Below, in pieces: positions 28,046 through 58,530 of a stretch of DNA of 64,000 nt (the first letter of the stretch is position 1; each line of letters opens with the position of its first letter). The DNA comes from Escallonia rubra (taxonomy: Eukaryota; Streptophyta; Magnoliopsida; Escalloniales; Escalloniaceae). The notes under the pieces were generated by a model that was not told where the DNA came from, made no database searches, and saw only the letters and a list, made by a program, of their open reading frames with translations. The stretch is taken from contig JAVXUO010002348.1 in NCBI GenBank assembly GCA_033065855.1, positions 186,001 through 250,000 on the forward strand, written 5' to 3'. A program made the position numbers and the translations under genes.

Positions 28046-28185
28046 ATCGCTTCAACTTTCACTTCATTCAATTCCCAATCTCACTTCACTTCAGTCTCAT
28101 AATTCACATGACCAAAGACAACACCACATAGATACAGATTCTGCGTAGCATCTATCTCTGTGTATCTTGCTCTCCACCTCCGGAA
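26577..28185. other. Intergenic between sialyltransferase-like and SAM genes
   Basis: Probably includes the 3' untranslated region of the upstream gene. A 24-base CT tract at about 28020-28044 lies in the likely 5' leader or core promoter of the SAM gene. No other gene or element was recognised. Confidence 0.5.
28020..28044 (+). promoter_or_regulatory. CT-repeat tract upstream of SAM gene start
   Basis: An uninterrupted CT dinucleotide run about 145 bases before the ATG at 28186. Pyrimidine (CT) tracts near plant transcription starts are common core-promoter or leader elements. Function here is inferred from position only. Confidence 0.45.
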
Positions 28186-29007
28186 ATGGCGGAGCCACAC
28201 TCACTGGACAACCAGCTCAACGGCGGCGGCCCGCCGCCTCCACCGCCGGTAACCGCCTCCGCCGAGAACGTCGGGGCCGCCGCCAAGCGCCAACGCCGCC
28301 CCAGCGTTCGATTAGGCGACATCGGCCACCAGCCCCTGGATTCCCAATTCAATCGAAGACTCAAGCCCTGGAAGCACCCTCTCAAAGACTCCACCACCAC
28401 CAAGTCCTCCAAAACCCGCCCCTTAACCAACCTGAACGCCGGAGGCGGCGGCGGCGGAAACGGCGGAGGTGGCGGTGGAGATTACCACGAAACCCTAGAT
28501 GGCGAAGATAAGGATAACAATCTGGATAGTGTCGCGATTGGGAGCTGGAGAGTCAAAGATTCTGTTTCCAAGTCAAAGAGGGGGCCCACCACGAAGCGGA
28601 TTAGGTCAAATTGGGCTTCGAATGCAGATGTGGATGACGACGGGTTTAGGGGTTTTGAATACGAGGGCTCCGAGAGCCCTTTAAAGGACCCGAGCCCGAG
28701 CCCCATACAGTCGTTGGATAGGGGGGAGGGTAGGGAGGAGCAGCAGGATTGGGGGGCCGATTTAGATGGGCCCTCGGATACGGACGCGAGGAATTGGAAT
28801 AATGGGCCGGAGAGGGATGGGGTGAGGGTGTGGCTCAACCAGCTGGGGCTGGGGCGGTACGCCCCCGTGTTCGAGGTACATGAGGTGGACGATGAGGTGC
28901 TGCCCATGTTGACATTGGAGGATCTGAAGGATATGGGGATAAATGCGGTGGGGTCGAGGCGGAAGATGTACTGCTCGATTCAGAAGCTCGGTAAAGGATT
29001 CTCGTGA
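28186..29007 (+). CDS. SAM-domain protein, single exon, 273 aa
   Basis: Starts MAEPHSLDNQLNGGG and ends IQKLGKGFS. The N-terminal two thirds are low complexity: a proline run (~16-21), a basic patch AAKRQRRPS (~32-40), a glycine run (~87-98), a second basic patch SKSKRGPTTKRIR (~128-140) and acidic, S/D-rich sequence. The C-terminal ~60 residues (~212-271) form a sterile alpha motif, with VRVWLNQLGLGRYAPVFE, LPMLTLEDLKDMGI and GSRRKMYCSIQKL. SAM domains mediate protein-protein or RNA contacts; this plant-specific family has no firmly known function. The basic patches suggest nuclear location (inference). The GC-rich coding sequence differs sharply from its flanks, which is usual for its G/P-rich composition. 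Confidence 0.93.
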   Translation: MAEPHSLDNQLNGGGPPPPPPVTASAENVGAAAKRQRRPSVRLGDIGHQPLDSQFNRRLKPWKHPLKDSTTTKSSKTRPLTNLNAGGGGGGNGGGGGGDYHETLDGEDKDNNLDSVAIGSWRVKDSVSKSKRGPTTKRIRSNWASNADVDDDGFRGFEYEGSESPLKDPSPSPIQSLDRGEGREEQQDWGADLDGPSDTDARNWNNGPERDGVRVWLNQLGLGRYAPVFEVHEVDDEVLPMLTLEDLKDMGINAVGSRRKMYCSIQKLGKGFS

Positions 29008-31702: not shown

Positions 31703-34700
31703 TCACTCCAACTTAACCCTGTTTTCCTCCAGCTGCTCTTTCTTGGGCTCAGCTGGAAAGTACTTTATGCCCACCATATCGCCAACTCTGCTTATTACCT
31801 GAAAAAAAGAAACTCCCAAAATAAGGACACTTCTAAGGACATCACGGGGAGAGACACCTCCATGTGTCATTCAATATTTTGTTCTTGAATGGCCGAGATA
31901 TCAGGTACTAATGTTACAGGAAAGTCGGATGTGGGTTTTTATATCAAATTTCAATTCATTGTTCACGTGTGGAAGCAGCATCGCCTCATCAGTACATGAT
32001 ATGTACCCTGGTTTAAGAAACTTCAACCGCAAAAAATGTGCGAGTATGCAATTCAATGAATGACAGGAATATACCAGTATTCTTGTCTACAGCATCACGT
32101 GTGCTGTCTCAACACATATATCTTCAAACCCAAAATATGTACGTTTCTTTCTATAGCCATGACATGTAGAAGTGGAAGATCTCACAACCATCATCTAAAA
32201 ACTAGTATGCATTATCCTTTGGCAGAGTAAAACTGAAAGGGGGGTGCAACCATCCTACTACTACTCTTGCCATATCACACAAAACTAAAATGCATGTATC
32301 GAGAAGCAAGTCATGTCCAGAACTTCAATGTAGTACACCAAATAGCAATCATCTCTACGTGTTCCTTGACTATTTATTTATACTGGCAGAGCAGCTCTTA
32401 GGTACATCTACTAATTCAAATTATAACAATGTAAATTAACAACTAAGAGAAAAATATACAGATAGGTCATAACCTCTAGAGCTTTGATCATGTCTTCCCT
32501 TGAGTGAGCAGCAGATATGCAAATGCGTGCTCTGGCCAAGAGTAAAGGGGTGGCTGGAAAAGCAACTGTCACTACAGCTACCTGTAAAAAAAAAGTTTAT
32601 TTCAGTAAGCATCACCTATTTAATAGTATTTAAGCAAAGAAAATCTTGGCATAAAGCAAGTAAAGTCCTCGTATAAACGAACATAAAAAGTGATAAGGGC
32701 GATTAAAGAAGGAACTTACATTTTGTTTGAGGCACTCCCTTGAAAAGGCAGGAATTTTTGCAGGATTGTAGAGCATTATAGGCATCACAGGTGAGTCATT
32801 GTCACCTAGAACCTCAAAACCCATTTTCTGAAGTTCTGACCTGAAGAAGTTGCTATTCTCCCTTATTCGAGCAAGTTTTTGAGCCCCTAGCGGCACAAAC
32901 AGCAAGATAAGGTTAGCACTAAATAGATAGGCATTCAGGTTTAATCGGCTCGATGGCACGTCATGGAAGTCAAAAGTGTTGAGGAAAAAAACAACTAATT
33001 TGTACCTCTACTCGAACCATCCTCTCCAAGAATGACCTTTATGGCTGAAATTATCTGTTGAGCAGCCGGAGGCGATATTGATGTGGCATACAGATGAGCA
33101 GGACAAGAATACTTCAAGTATTGAATAAGGTCCTGAGAATATAAACGAGTAAGGAACAGAAATGGAAAACCAATGTCCTAAATAGACTCTCATCACATGC
33201 AGACTTCTGAATGCCAGCTAAAAGAGGAAATGAAAAGCAAAGTTAAAGCCGTATTACTATAAGGCTTTATCATATAACACCACTATCGCGAATTGCATCA
33301 TGCAGTATCAGGGATACAGCTAAATTATGAGGTAAACTTTGTAGCTTTCATCTGAGCAATGGCTTTGATTTGAAGCCAAATCCTAATGATACAGAAGATA
33401 GTGAAGCAGCAAAGAAGCAAATGAACATGGTTCGAATTATGATGGACGGAAGGACCATATGTAGACCAAATATGACAACCTTTGTCTTGTGTTGTTGCGT
33501 TTTCATCCGAACTTTACATTAAAACTAGAAACCATTGCCCTTCTTCCTGTTCTGCCAATTGTCTTACTTATCTGGATCTAAACCTTATTAATACAATGGA
33601 AACATGACTAGACATAGAATGCCATCACCTAGCTGTTTAGTTAGTCAGAATAACATTCTTAAGAAAGAGGTTGACCATATTACTTATAACTCCAACAACC
33701 CAGATATAATTTGCGGTAACCACCCCTCAACCCCACTCCACCCCCGCAAAAACAAAAAATGAAAAAAACAATCCCCAAAAGAAGGGGAAGAAGAAACCTA
33801 TTTTATCACTTCAAGGAGAGAATGCTCCCTGGTACTTGCCACCTTTACTAGATGGTTCAACAAAGCATGCACACAAAACAACGTTACACAAGGGTTTTGC
33901 CCGTCTCAGGCTCTTCGCATTGAGTGAAATTTTGAAAAAGGAACACAAACAAACCAACCAACCAACCTTGGATCCTGCAATATAACCACCACACGATCCA
34001 AAAGATTTTGTAAAAGTTCCCATCATGATATCCACATCGGCAGTATCCACTCCTAAAAGCTCACAAACACCCCTTCCTGATTTTCCAACTGCTCCAATGC
34101 TGTGAGCCTCGTCCAAATAAACATATGCCTGTGACAGTAGAGTAGAACATAAAACGAAGCCAGCGTCAATGCCGAATAACAAGCACATGCATATTACAGA
34201 AGTAGAAGTAAAATTTAGCAACAGAGTGAAATAATGTGGCACTCAAGGAAACCTTATATCTAAAAATGACAAATAAACATATAAGACGCAACCATAGATA
34301 CAAGTGAATATATGCCAGAGAAAAATAAGAAATACAAATACATGCAACCATTGAGCTCGACAATATTTTGACTTTCTAAGATTTAGGCCCGACAAAAGGT
34401 AATAACTAGAAACCATTTCAACCGAGTACATTCAATGATAGGTTGGAGATGGTAATATTGAAGTAACATGTCACCACATTCAACTTATTCTTGGAAAAAT
34501 GATATCATAACATTTATAGTCCATCAACTACATACAATGTCCAAAGCATATCCAACAAATGCACCACCTTATATTTCTTGGATATGGCAACAATTTCTGG
34601 AAGTTTGCAGAGTTCCCCTTCCATGCTGTATATCCCCTCCACCACAATGATAATTTTTTTCCATGGTCTATGTGTTCTGGGTTGCCCCTCAGCTATATGT

Positions 34701-44120: not shown

Positions 44121-46399
44121 TCAGTGCCTTTTATTGTTTAGTTTTGCAGTGCTTGATTTCGACGGAGCAGCAATAAGGTGTGCAAACGCAGCAACAATGG
44201 CAATAACTGATATTTGGGAACCATACTTTGCAAGCAAACTCTGCACAAGAAAGTCGATAGTAAGCAAATGAGAGAACATTAAGGAAGGTGACATTAAATC
44301 ATATGTAGGCAGCGGCGGGCTACACTTTGTGCCACAGCATGAATTCAAAAGGAAAACTAGACCAAAAATACATGTAAATCCGAAGCAACGTGGTGGAAAC
44401 AGACCAGAAAGAAAACGTCATTTGAGAATTGCAGAAAATAAGTTGGAAGACTGAATATGTACGGGAATTATTTCTTACCTTCACCTAAGAGCATGCAGCC
44501 ACCACGAGGTGATTCCATGGGAAGACACAAAAGAAAAACATTATAGAGTCAAAGAAATTCATCATAACCTTATAAACAGGCATAAAGGAGAACAAGAGTC
44601 GTGATAACAATGTGTTTGCTTATAATTGGACGGAAGAGGTTACCAAATCAAACGTCTTTTGAGGAGCTCTATCTGCAAGAACATCCAGTGGCAGGATTGG
44701 GGTTGAATATGCTTCCTACCAATCAGCGAAGTATGACTTAGTACATTATTAACACATCAGTATAGATCATTAAGCTATTAGCAGTTTTTCCAAAATGTTA
44801 TACCTGCAGGTTGGCCTTCATGGGAACACGAAATGTGATGAGAGCAGGTGCGCCATAGTAGATGGTTTTCACTCTTGAATCCAAATCAAAAGAATGCGCT
44901 ACTAGAGATCCACTAAACATGTAAATATAGAAAACAAATAGACAAGAGAGTTTATACACTAGAAAAGAAGGTTTAAGTTAAAGCTTGGAAGATTAGAGGC
45001 TAGAGAGTGTTGTAACTTACGCATCAAGTTTGTCCCATGACTTCGAAGTGTTGCCAATGATGGAATCAAAGACATCGTGACTCCAACTATCATCAGTAAG
45101 GCTTACATCATATGCAGTTCTGAAAAGTTTCGTGAAATCAAGGTTGGCTACATCTCAAACAACCATATTTCGACAGTTTTACAAACCGAAATGTCATTGT
45201 TTTCCACAGAATTAGCAATGCAGCTGGCAAGTGATAATCACAAGTCAACTAAGATTCCTACATAAACCACATAGATAAAACAAGAAAAAAAAAATGAGTA
45301 CATTGCTGGGATAGCATATACTGTATCATTGTCTATGTGAGTTCGAATGTGTGTGCGAGCACGCGTGTCTGTGTTTCTCTGTGCAAGCGAGACCTTAGAC
45401 TCCAATCCAAGCACTTAAACATATATCATCAAGCAGTTTGTCCTAGGGCATTTCAGCTTGCTTTCGTGAGTCAGAACACACAACAAAGCACTGTGCTTTC
45501 AGAGCGTATGTGGCGTTCAAACTTGCAAGTACCAGTCAGTTTTTCAACAGTAAATTCAGGTGGTGTATCAACTAAATGAACTATTATGAAAAATTCTGGG
45601 ACAACGTAGACCAAGTCAACTTTAAAATCCCCCTTTTCAACTTTCCTCGAGGAGCCTCCAATCGCAGCAACTATAGACATTGGAATCTACTGTCCTTCGT
45701 ATTAGCATCCACTCGTCTATCAGCATTTGCCGCTTATCCATCTCACCGTATAACTAACTTCTTGATGCCACTTGACACAGGAAATACATGAAATAGGACA
45801 GGAAAAAGAAAATTATAGCTGAGCCACAGCCGATCTCTAGCATTAGACTACAAACCACCAACCGCCCCCCACCCCAGCCAACCCCGGTCTCCTCTTTCTT
45901 CAACCTGACATAGACGTAGACACATTACCCATCCGAAAGGCGTAGTAACTGTAGCTTCTATTTCGATCCAAAAAGGAGTTTATTGCCAAAGCATCTCAGA
46001 CATGTGAAAACAAATCATGCAAACATGTTTACAATAAAGAGCAGCAAGTCCGCTGATCAGCACATGAAGTGCGCACAAGAGCAACACAATCACAAGCATA
46101 ACAATGCAAAATTGCGACATATGCCCCCAGTTACAAACGCATGCAGGACAGGAGGATCAGACAAATGAAACGTACCAAAAGCTAAATCGCAACCGGGAAA
46201 TTGCTTACGCTGATCCGCGGTTGTAAATGTCGATGACGACGGAGACACGTTCCGTCGCGGGGTTGAGCTTTTGGAGGGCGACCTTCTTGTGGGCGACTAT
46301 GAACGGTGAATCAGAGGCAAATGCGGTGGCTGAAATGGAAAGCAGAGCTAATAGAAGAGCGACTACCTTCAATGGAGCATTTTTACTGGGGCTCGCCAT
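44121..46399 (-). CDS. TRAPB: Translocon-associated protein subunit beta (TRAP-beta), 198 aa, with microexon
   Basis: Exons in transcription order: 46399-46209, 45119-45021, 44912-44804, 44715-44644, 44484-44479, 44240-44121. The product has an N-terminal signal peptide (KVVALLLALLSISATAFASD, 11-30), a lumenal TRAP-beta domain (SPFIVAHKKVAL, VSVVIDIYNRGSATAYDVSL, ITFRVPMKANLQ, ILPLDVLADRAP), one C-terminal membrane segment (ISVIAIVAAFAHLIAA) and a short basic cytosolic tail ending NNKRH. Size fits Arabidopsis (~195 aa). TRAP sits beside the Sec61 channel in the ER and assists translocation of some precursors. A 6-nt exon (GTGAAG, Val-Lys) is needed to align FDLVKSLLAKYG with family FEWAKRLLAKYG; without it two residues are missing, though frame is kept. 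Exons are intact. Confidence 0.93.
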
Positions 46400-52905: not shown

Positions 52906-53924
52906 ACATGAATGAGCTTTGAAGAGAACGAACCACGAGCCGTTCATGAACAACTTGATTCATTTACAGCCCTGTCTAGGAGTATTAATCAAAGTCCTTT
53001 CTTTTTTGTCCCTCCAACCATGGCACAAAATCTTGACAATAGTTTTCTTCCACTCTTCTTCATGATCCACCCCTACCTCATGATAACTAGGTGGCTTCAA
53101 ACCTAGACTATATTGCTCATAGCCTTATCCATAGTCGCAAAGGTGTCAAAGTTCACGATAATTAATGCAAAATTCCCGCGACATAAAGAAATCTTGTTAT
53201 TGCACTACAAACCCGATTTCTCGTCTCCTTTTCAACTTTTTCAATTTCAAAAAATGGGGATGGCTTCTTCTTTCTTGGCCTAACTGCCACTTCAGGTCCA
53301 GGGCAAGAAATATCCTTTTCATAAGTAACAGTTGGAATTTATTACAGATCATTGTGTAATGTTTATGCATTTTGCGATTCAAAGGATTGATCTCCTAAAT
53401 GTAAAAAAGAATCAAATTCGTAATGATTACTTTTCTATTTTGATGAATGATCTCCCATAGTCTGATCTCTCTGTCGAACACTTGCAGTTCATGGCAGGTT
53501 ATGGCGTAATTTTTATGTGCAATTATTTTTTGGTAGGTATTTTAGGTGCACTTGATCGTTGCGAAGAGTATGCATGCATTATCCATATTGGCCGTTCAGG
53601 AGATTGATATCCTAAATAGGAAAGGGTCAAGCTTTGTTACCGAGTTGGTGTGGCTAGTGTTAGTCCATCAGCCTCCTTCTATGACCTTTATTCTTGACAA
53701 GCACCATTTACCAGTTATGAAAGCTAGGTCAGCAGTTGCATTAATGCCAAGGTTTCTAGCAATCTTAGACTGGTTTGCTGCTTAAGAAAACCTGCAAAAC
53801 TCGAGGGGTATTCATTCGCTAAGTATATCTCTAAGTAGAAGACTTCATTAGAGCGCCAGATGTTCTTGTTGGTAAGAAACAGAATCCGACTAGCTTCCTG
53901 GAAAACTTTGCAGATCTGAACTCA

Positions 53925-54945
53925 AATGCCTTTTCTTGTTTAGTTTTGCAGTGCTTGATTTCGACGGAGCAGCAATAAGGTGTGCAAACGCAGCCACAAC
54001 GGCAATGACTGATATTTGGGAACCAGAGTTTGCAAGCAAACTCTGCAAAAAGAAAGTTAATATATAGGAAGCAAATGAGAGAACATAAAAGAAGGTGGCA
54101 TTATTAAATCGTCTGTAGGCAGCGGTGGGCTACACTTCGTGCCACACCACGAATACAAAAAGGATAACTAGACCAAAATCTACGTAAACACGAGCGCACA
54201 GTGTTGGAAACAGACCAGAATAAAACATCACTTGAGAATTGCAGAAGATAAGTTGGAAGATGGAACGTGAACTGTTTCTTAATTTCCTTCACCTCAGAGC
54301 ACGCAGCCACCATGAGGTTCTTCCATGGAATACACGAAAAAAAACGTTGTAGTCATAGAAAATCATGATAACCTTGTAAAATGGCAAAAATGAGAACAAG
54401 AAATCGTGATAACAACGAATTTGCTTATAATTGGACGGAAGAGGTTTCCAAATCAAATGTCTTTTGAGGAGCTCTATCATCAAGAACGAACATCCAGTGG
54501 CAGGATTGGCGTTGAACATGCTTCCTAGCAATCATCTAAGTATGACTTAGTACATTATTAACTCATCCGTATAAATTAAGCTATTAGCAGTTTTTTCCAA
54601 ATTGTTATACCTGCAGGTTGGCCTTCATGGGAACACGAAAGGTAATGAGAGCAGGTGCGCCATAGTAAATGGTCTTCATTCTTGAATCCAATCAAAAGAA
54701 TTGAATGGGAAACTAGAGATCCACTAAACATGTAAATATAGAAAACAAATAAACAAGAGAGTGCATACATTAGAAAAAAATGTTAAGTTAAAGCTTGGAA
54801 GAATATTAGAGGCTAGAGACTAGTGTGTGTTGTGACTTACGCATCAAGTTTGTCCCATAAGTTGGAAGTGTTGCCAATGATGGAATCAAAGACATCGTGA
54901 CTCCAACTATCATCACTAAAGGCTTTACATCATATGCAGTTCTGA
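53925..54945 (-). pseudogene. TRAP-beta pseudogene lacking exon 1
   Basis: This copy holds equivalents of exons 2-6 of the gene at 44121-46399. Exon 2 (~54942-54841) has a 2-base net insertion. Exon 3 (~54729-54612) is frameshifted after SLVSHS. Exon 4 has an extra GTTC-type insertion giving a stop after the LDVRS codons, and its GT donor is now GA. The microexon keeps GTGAAG (~54280) but its following GTAAG has become GAAAT. The last exon (54042-53927) changes LLAKYGS to LLANSGS, and one inserted base removes the normal stop. Exon 1 and promoter are absent. Confidence 0.92.
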
Positions 54946-55128
54946 AATGTTTCATGAAATCAAGGTTGGCTACATCTCAAACAACCAGATTTCAACAGTT
55001 TTACAAACCGAAATGTCATTGTTATATAGAAGCTGGCAAGTGATAATCACATCACAGTTCAACTAATATTCCTACAAAAACCATATAGAAAAAAAAATAT
55101 GAGAGCATTCCTGGTATATCATAATATT

Positions 55129-56322
55129 GAGTGGTTGTCTAACACCACGTCATCGGTCTAAGTGGTGTTAGACTTTCACTTATATTTTACCAACTAAGCA
55201 AACTTGTCAAATAGTGAAGTTATTTACCATGGTTAATGAAAGTTTAAAATTCAAAATTTCACAAATTTTAAGCAACCGCCAAGTATTTTTTTACCACCAT
55301 TCTCTTTGTGCTCCTTAATTTCTCCCTCTTCTCTTTCATTTTCATCAACCACCATCACCACCATCATCCACAAAAATCTTGTGCAGCGCTGCTATTAGCG
55401 ACACCACCGCTCCTGAAACTCACTACACGTGTATTCGGCAAGAAAGCCAGTTTACTTTCCATTCTTCTTTTTCATTTCTGACGACAATGCCATGGAAATA
55501 AAGATCAAGATAGAATTACTAGATAGTATGCCTATCCAGTAAGAGTAAAGATCCATTTCCTAATCTCCAATGGTTATAGGTTGAAAAAGAAGAAGTTTTT
55601 GAACATAAAAACAGAAAAATAAAAAGAAAAGTGGCAAATCACATGAGTAACCTTATCTGTTACACTTGGGGTTTTGTCAAAAAAAAATTCCATGATGAGA
55701 AATTCAAAAGTGCAAACAAATCTAAGAATCTGAAATCATAGCCGATTCCTCTAGCTATTTTAGTCGATAAGAGGTAGACGCCTTTTCTGACTTTGTATGC
55801 TTGAAAAATGATGGAAGAGAGCAGATCTGCGCCGAAAATCCTTTGTCTTGAATCAATGCCCGGCAAAGCGACTATTCAGTCAAATGACCGGAGTTGTGAT
55901 GGTGACGACGGTAGCGTCAAGGTGGTGATCATGGCTCCCACCGGAAAATAGTGCCACATCCTTTCCACCACCAAAGGTCTCCACGGCTTCTACCTCCATT
56001 AGTTCAAACAGTCTTTCCTTCTTTTGTTTGTCATCCCAGAGAAGAGGGAATCTAGGTAGGATGCTACTCTGTAGTCATGTGTGTGTCTCGGTGAGTGAGA
56101 GTGAGAGAGAGAGATGAGCTGCTGAGACATGAAAGGATTAGGGTCGGAGATGTGGGTTTTGTATTTTTTATTTTTTAATTGATATATTTTTAATTACTTA
56201 AACATATAACTATCTAGCTGAATAGATGTCTCACTTACTATTTGACAATCTTGCTTAGTTCGCACAATATAAGTGAAAGTTTAACATCGTCTAAGTCAAT
56301 GACGTGGTGTTAGACAACTACT
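55129..56322. mobile_element. TIR element inserted in copy B, 1.2 kb
   Basis: The left end GAGTGGTTGTCTAACACCAC (55129) and the reverse of the right end, with AGTTGTCTAACACCACGTCA, form inverted repeats of ~90 bp. Both contain ACTTTCACTTATATT and ACTAAGCAA. TAATATT flanks both sides (55122-55128, 56323-56329), with ends ambiguous by a base or two. A hAT or Mutator class is possible. The interior contains non-TE-like, UTR-like sequence on the minus strand (GA-rich stretch near 56100, open frame at 55660-55866) that may be captured. No transposase was recognised. Confidence 0.75.
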
Positions 56323-56768
56323 TAATATTTTCTCAGCATATATAGTATCATGATTCGTGTGAGTATGCATGTTTGTGTGGGCGCGCACATGCATGTGTGT
56401 TTCTATGTGCAAGGGAGACCCGAGATTCCAATCCAAGCACTTAAACATTATCAAAAAGTTTGTCCTAGGCATTTCACCTTGCCTTCATCAGTCACAACAC
56501 ACAACGAAGCACTATGCTTTCAGAGCATACGTGATGCTCAAACTTGCAAGTCCCAGTAAGTTTCTCGAAAACACAAGACAAGCATTATGGAAAATTCTTA
56601 TGACTTGTCCGTCCTTTTTTGGGCAATTTTGGACGCAACGAACGAATATGATGAGCGTGAAAGAAAGGTCATCCTTATGACTTGTCCGTCCTTAACGGAA
56701 AAATCCTTCCATCTCTCCAGATTTCCTATCATTATTATTTAGCATCTTACCAAAAAAGCTCTAAACAC

Positions 56769-56787: not shown

Positions 56788-58530
56788 GTTGCCGAAACCA
56801 AGTAATTCAACCAATAAAGTTTTCAATTGTATGTGTGACTGATTCAAGTCTACGTAAAAGATGATAGAAATGGAAGTACTTTAACACAGAGAGAGGGTGT
56901 GATACCCCATTAAACACGGAACCCTGTCCTGATGAAGCGATCTTTGGAGTTATTACTTAACAATTATCGTAAAAAAAATAGACAAAAGGTATTTTCACGT
57001 CTTGTCCAATGATCTTAAATGTTTGGGTAACCGGAGTGAACGCTTGAAGTAAAAAGAGAGTGGCACCAATGGAGCGGGATGACTTGAGTGCCTAACCCAT
57101 GGTTTGACAATAGTCCCTTAATCTCTACCTTTGGCTTGTGCATAAACATAAATCGCTTCAAAAGTGAAACCTTACACAAGTGACCATGTACGTCTTTTTT
57201 GCTTCTGATTCTGAGAGCAGGTATCAGTTCCAACTGTGCATGGAAGAGAAGGTCTAGCATGAAAGACAAGGGCCAATCTGGGTAGCAAGGATGACAGGCC
57301 TAGAAACCACTGCTGAGAAAGGCCAGTGATAGCTAGCTGGCTAAACGCTTGACCTACCCTATCGGTAAGAATTTAGGCAAGCCATCCTTGGCTACCAAAC
57401 ATGACTCTCTGTCTCCATACAAGGCCACTCTTCCTCCCACTGATGCCATGACCTAATCTCCCTTACAAGGCATCTATATATAGGCGAAGACTGAACTAGG
57501 GATGAGGAGATAGTAAGATTCCCAAATTGACAACGTAAATATAGCTTAGCTCCCCGTTGCCTCCTTATCAGTCTCTCCACGAGCAAAAGCATTTTATCTG
57601 AAAACGTCTCTCGTGGAGATTCAATCTTTAATCCACCCATATGGGCATATATTCCACAAAAGGAATTTCAAGTGCCAATAGCGTGTCGATCGATCAACTT
57701 GTACGAGTATGCGTGACTCCAAATTGATCAAAATTTTGATCTACCTCCATCACTTTTAGCACACAATTTCAACCAAGCAACAAGCATGTTCTACATAGAT
57801 CATTGTTTCTTGAAAGTTGCAGAATATTGTCCATCCAAACGATTATTAAGACTTGAGAATCACAAGACATTCGCTAGCTAGGTAATTGGATTGGGTGGAC
57901 ACAAGCTGGGACTTACTACAACATGAGTTGCTTTGAACAGCGACAGCCGGACCCATACTTGCCCTTTGACATTCTCACATAGCTATAAGTGGGAAGCTTT
58001 CAACTTCCCAAAAGAAGAATCACAGAAAATGAGATTTTGCAGCTTTTGTGGCTATTGTCAAATACAGTAATAATTATCTTTTCCAAATATTCTTCGAGAA
58101 AATTGCATTTTAATTACCATGTAATCAGCAATTTGCATGGTTATCATACTTTAAACCATATCTCTTTCTTCACTACTCACTCCAACATTCTCATGGTTCT
58201 TCAGTTTACGCCAAAAAGAAAAATGGTGCTCAGTCATGAAAGACGAAATCGATGATCTTCATCACCAAGTTTGTAGCTTTTATTCCATTTGACCTCAAAG
58301 CATTCAATCAAGTTGGGGTTCATTTATACTTCACTTAGACTAGGGTGGGTTATGGGTTTACTACATGCATTGTCCGTCCTACCACAAATTAAAATTTTGT
58401 TCTGTGGATCTATACAAAGAGTTAAAATATCAAAATAAATATTATTGCAAATATAATATGGACCCAAGTAAAAAAGGGGAGAGAGAGAGACAAAATGGCA
58501 CGATGGTGAGAGAAAATTAAAAAGAAATGA

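Follow-up and report, generated by a model that had tools for sequence, protein, structure and literature searches.

A six-base microexon, very probably coding, in a TRAP-beta gene of Escallonia rubra and its counterpart in a diverged paralogue

The six bases at 44484-44479 on the minus strand of the window (the whole stretch of 64,000 nucleotides of Escallonia rubra DNA that was analysed) are, judged from sequence, very probably a genuine coding microexon, that is, exon 5 of the six exons of a plant TRAP-beta gene (beta subunit of the translocon-associated protein complex, which assists the entry of newly made proteins into the secretory system). A coding microexon had been proposed for this site in a first-pass annotation of the DNA; it is still the best reading because a six-base exon for Val-Lys is retained in a diverged paralogue, with position and phase unchanged, even though the surrounding introns of the two genes do not align. 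We infer that GTGAAG is spliced in, and that it is probably present in most transcripts. The gene model is as follows.

46209-46399, minus strand: TRAP-beta exon 1, coding part, 191 nt, with the start codon at 46399 (placed by inspection); no stop in the spliced frame; the paralogue exon has 182 nt
45021-45119, minus strand: exon 2, 99 nt; equal length in the paralogue (locus L006)
44804-44912, minus strand: exon 3, 109 nt; equal length in the paralogue
44644-44715, minus strand: exon 4, 72 nt, ending ...KTFDL in phase 0, with the weak donor TTG/GTAACC; equal length in the paralogue
44485-44643, minus strand: upstream intron, from exon 4 to the microexon, 159 nt; its paralogue counterpart measures 154 nt
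44479-44484, minus strand: putative microexon 5, GTGAAG, Val-Lys, phase 0; GTTAAG at L006:3714-3719 in the paralogue
44241-44478, minus strand: downstream intron, from the microexon to exon 6, 238 nt; its paralogue counterpart measures 464 nt
44121-44240, minus strand: exon 6, coding part, 120 nt with the stop, SLLAKYG..., presumed membrane helix and tail; equal length in the paralogue

Read directly, the minus strand at 44484-44479 is ctcttag/GTGAAG/gtaaga (with its wider flanks, ggctgcatgctcttag GTGAAG gtaagaaataattc), so the bases, strand and coordinates reported previously are exact. The same annotation had placed six coding bases (Val-Lys) between ...KTFDL and SLLAKYG; when GTGAAG is joined between these exons, the result is a six-exon TRAP-beta frame of 198 residues that is open to the stop, and all five introns of the model are GT-AG. 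Exons 4 and 6 are 403 bases apart (44643-44241), an interval that the microexon divides into introns of 159 and 238 bases. The six bases, five of them purines, are in phase 0 on both sides and keep the flanking reading frame. Like other small coding microexons of plants, this one is internal, no longer than 15 nt and bounded by canonical sites (tag/.../gta).

The evidence that carries this reading comes from the second complete TRAP-beta gene (L006), located on contig C2913 of the same genome. Its exons 2-6 measure 99, 109, 72, 6 and 120 bases, identical to those of the window gene; only exon 1 differs (182 vs 191 bases). Its exon 5 is GTTAAG, located between aactatctcag and gtataattt, and also encodes Val-Lys in phase 0; thus, the size and phase of the microexon are shared with one diverged paralogue, from the same genome. 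The two proteins are identical at 122 of 195 aligned residues. In a Nei-Gojobori count the genes are separated by a dS of ~1.5, which is near saturation, with a dN/dS of 0.17; both have therefore been maintained as proteins for most of that period. Between the window gene and the paralogue, the introns flanking the microexon fail to align significantly (best BLAST E 0.73). At the C-terminal end (44121-44240), the window gene (AFAHLIAAPSKSSTAKLNNKRH; FAHLIAAPSKS...NNKRH) departs from the paralogue (LFIYLVATPSKSGAAKGSKKKR; FIYLVATPSKS...KKKR); the dN/dS of this part is 0.17, like that of the rest of the gene, and the difference perhaps reflects looser constraint or a changed function. As a separate observation, the motif TGCATG starts 13 bases before the microexon in the window gene (44493-44498) and 38 bases before it in the paralogue (L006:3676-3681), a comparison of two sequences only.

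The 198-residue protein matches the TRAP_beta family (PF05753; SSR2) with 149.9 bits (cut-off, 22.4), covering profile positions 5-173 of 178; by this profile match it resembles the family, although its C-terminal end is unlike that of the paralogue. By eye, Val-Lys falls after the lumenal domain and ahead of the presumed membrane helix. The Arabidopsis protein presumably has two residues at the corresponding position, where its sequence would be KPLDIAKRLLAKYG. The first-pass annotation had argued from a fixed family spacing that two residues were missing between exons 4 and 6. The paralogue agrees with that spacing; however, the Pfam profile does not, scoring both proteins ~1.1 bits better without Val-Lys than with it (151.0 vs 149.9 for the window gene; 189.3 vs 188.2 for the paralogue). 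When zero, one, two or three X residues are inserted at the last-exon junction of the paralogue, the scores are 40.0, 39.4, 38.8 and 38.3 bits (38.9 with Val-Lys), so each extra residue costs ~0.6 bit. PF05753 treats the junction as a stretch of variable length, and the profile gives the exon no support; since it prefers fewer residues at the junction, family spacing was dropped as proof of the exon. The TRAP-beta chains in the PDB, which we take to be mammalian, were likewise dropped as a yardstick for the spacing because they are too distant. Both phmmer and MAFFT set Val-Lys and its surroundings opposite these chains without a gap. In local alignments with the C-terminal piece of the chains, three of the four forms (either gene, with or without Val-Lys) land elsewhere (scores 21, 21 and 28, all weak), and the fourth, the paralogue without Val-Lys, aligns weakly (score 30) with a two-residue gap near the site. 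No TRAP-beta relative from another species was confirmed in the viral (122 pattern matches) or prokaryote (50) contig collections.

How often would an intron of this kind offer a six-base exon by chance? We defined a candidate exon as a stop-free stretch of 3-99 bases, in multiples of three, preceded by YAG and followed by GTR, that lies 60 bases or more from both ends of the intron. By these rules, the 403-base intron of the window gene holds GTGAAG and no other exon choice; the paralogue intron holds four other candidates (DG, DGV, a 30-mer and a 75-mer), and none is common to the window gene. Two points favor a plain 403-base intron in a family that tolerates two residues fewer: PF05753 makes no demand for the two residues, and a stop-free six-base candidate of any sequence appears in 9% of the dinucleotide shuffles of the window intron (1,866 of 20,000). 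In the longer 624-base intron of the paralogue, such a candidate appears in 5,532 of 20,000. A six-base candidate encoding Val-Lys appears in just one of the 20,000 shuffles of the window intron and in 20 of the 20,000 for the paralogue. The annotators' original case therefore depended on knowing that Val-Lys belongs at this place. What argues against chance is that the paralogue has the same length, phase and dipeptide; when both introns are shuffled, a shared six-base candidate with any one dipeptide occurs in 3 of 20,000 trials. We regard coincidence as the least probable of the readings considered here. The string AGGTNAAGGTA occurs once in the 64 kb window, against an expectation of 0.08, and at least once in 8 of 100 shuffles.

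The splice sites bear on how the six bases would be used. Donors were scored against CAG/GTAAGT (nine positions) and by their pairing energy with the start of U1. The microexon donor of the window gene (AAG/GTAAGA) agrees with the consensus at 7/9 positions and pairs at -9.5 kcal/mol, the best of the gene's five donors; the exon-4 donor (TTG/GTAACC) is weak, at 5/9. The microexon acceptor is TAG, not CAG, so the acceptor and donor, previously called 'perfect', are better described as good. In the paralogue, the microexon donor is ordinary (5/9, -5.7 kcal/mol).

In both genes the six bases begin with GT directly after the acceptor (TTAG/GTGAAG and CTCAG/GTTAAG), which is the arrangement of a recursive splice site: the intron would be spliced to TTAG, GTGAAG would then act as a donor, and no residues would be added. 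The nested donors score 5/9 (-6.8 kcal/mol) in the window gene and 6/9 (-6.6 kcal/mol; CAG/GTTAAG) in the paralogue, where this nested site slightly outscores the microexon donor (6 vs 5 of 9; -6.6 vs -5.7 kcal/mol). In the window gene, however, the microexon donor is the stronger (7/9 vs 5/9; -9.5 vs -6.8 kcal/mol). Moreover, the sole difference between GTGAAG and GTTAAG, G to T, is silent for valine and gives donor position +3 a pyrimidine in place of the preferred purine; unlike recursive sites, the six bases are conserved as codons. Recursive sites are also known mostly from very long introns. A purely recursive function is, on this evidence, very unlikely. It is similarly very unlikely, if a shade less so, that the site is a splice switch, serving either as recursive donor or as microexon so that two residues set the membrane linker of TRAP-beta; this idea comes from the GT that follows the acceptor in both paralogues, and the arrangement would be kept in both.

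If the six bases are a microexon, as we think very probable, they would add Val-Lys just ahead of the presumed membrane helix. Six bases would leave little room for simultaneous binding at both splice sites, and splicing of the two introns is therefore probably sequential. A strong donor on the microexon (AAG/GTAAGA) would favor removal of the downstream intron first, and exon 4 would then be joined through its weaker donor. According to the main text of a survey of plant microexons (PMC8831610), the introns beside them are often spliced late, the upstream more than the downstream; this fits a downstream-first order in which the microexon donor is strong and that of exon 4 weak. As the exon is six bases long and in phase 0, its omission would shorten the protein by two residues and leave the frame unbroken. 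In a variant of the preferred reading, not exclusive of it, the exon is real but frequently left out, so that two proteins would be made, with and without Val-Lys next to the membrane helix. The survival of the frame, the weak exon-4 donor of the window gene (5/9) and the nearly equal scores of the two forms against PF05753 are all consistent with frequent skipping; coding microexons do show alternative splicing, though they are usually in the major isoform (PMC8831610, main text). Steady inclusion fits better with the retention of Val-Lys in a paralogue that is near synonymous saturation, and we consider frequent skipping unlikely, although it deserves more weight than the recursive readings.

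Searches of the genome, which scored the best candidates only, returned at least nine places with DNA like exon 6, the window gene included, so more copies may exist. The exon 4-6 stretch is present in five of these copies: the window gene, a copy on contig C797 that is 98% identical, the paralogue on C2913, a tandem copy in the window, and the counterpart of that tandem copy on C797. GTNAAG is found at the place of the microexon in all five, although only two lineages are truly independent, since two of the five are a pseudogene and its counterpart and one is the 98% copy. In the latter, which may be the other haplotype, the microexon and its splice sites are identical to those of the window gene. 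Four further copies (L028, L030, L031 and L032) match only from 44379 or 44367 on; these matches begin after the microexon and so are silent on its presence. The tandem copy contributes two features.

53785-55141, minus strand: tandem pseudogene, exons 2-6 with introns; 84.6% identical to the gene over 1,398 columns, with frameshifts and two lost donors
54287-54292, minus strand: GTGAAG, intact in the tandem pseudogene, followed by GA where the donor has GT

We call this copy a pseudogene because of the frameshifts in exons 2, 3 and 4 and the two lost donors. It and its counterpart on C797 have frameshifting insertions in exons 2 and 4 and a one-base deletion in exon 3, and in both, GA stands for GT at the exon-4 donor and at the microexon donor. 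A further piece of the pseudogene is located at 56335-56566; relative to the gene, its intron 1 is interrupted by ~1.2 kb. Gene and pseudogene differ at 24 of 405 sites in exons 2-6 and at 130 of 895 sites in introns and flank (gap columns left out; Fisher p 4.5e-6), so the exons were constrained, for some of the time, in the gene, the pseudogene or both. No spliced retrocopy with joined exons was seen among 12 matches of a 198-base spliced query (best candidates scored). Exon 6, together with the end of the preceding intron, is also found as scattered fragments that are ~83-87% identical (C3146:13146-13262, C3147:2278-2394, C797:19215-19331 and C2269:546941-547013); perhaps these have been carried by mobile elements.

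Elsewhere in the window, MIR169, which we take to be a plant microRNA family, is represented by one precursor. This is MIR169_5 (57263-57414, plus strand; Rfam RF00865, 50.4 bits). Eighteen frames of at least 130 residues were found in the window; ten were compared with Pfam and two gave a match. The window holds an open frame with a SAM domain (28132-29007, plus strand) and one with a piece of an aminotransferase class I/II domain (33811-34242, minus strand).

Microexons of 1-15 nt are an established class in plants. The main text of the survey (PMC8831610) counts 2,398 across ten species, between 105 and 454 in each, with an annotated share that ranges from 17 to 78 percent by species; its examples include AP2 and invertase genes, with 9-nt exons, and APC11 and VPS55, with 1-nt exons. 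These figures agree with the first-pass statement that microexons this small are often missing from gene models. The TRAP-beta exon resembles the small coding microexons described there in being internal, coding, flanked by GT-AG introns and fixed in size and phase in related genes, and in belonging to a class that is often unannotated; it differs in the gene that carries it. The main text of PMC8831610, whose table of 45 clusters is supplementary, contains no match for translocon, TRAP, PF05753 or AT5G14030, and the exon may already be listed in those cluster tables or in MEPDB. Nothing on a six-base exon of TRAP-beta was found in the accessible portions of the microexon and TRAP literature (including PMC8138439, PMC6600660 and PMC12409088). 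Plants and algae have a reduced TRAP complex, with alpha and beta only, as stated in PMC10279528.

The six-base exon of TRAP-beta is thus a further example of an exon class already known from plants, and it leaves our knowledge of splicing and of the TRAP complex unchanged. Its value lies in correcting a gene model on which automatic annotation could readily err, and in providing a clean case in which a six-base exon has persisted in two paralogues although their introns have diverged beyond alignment.
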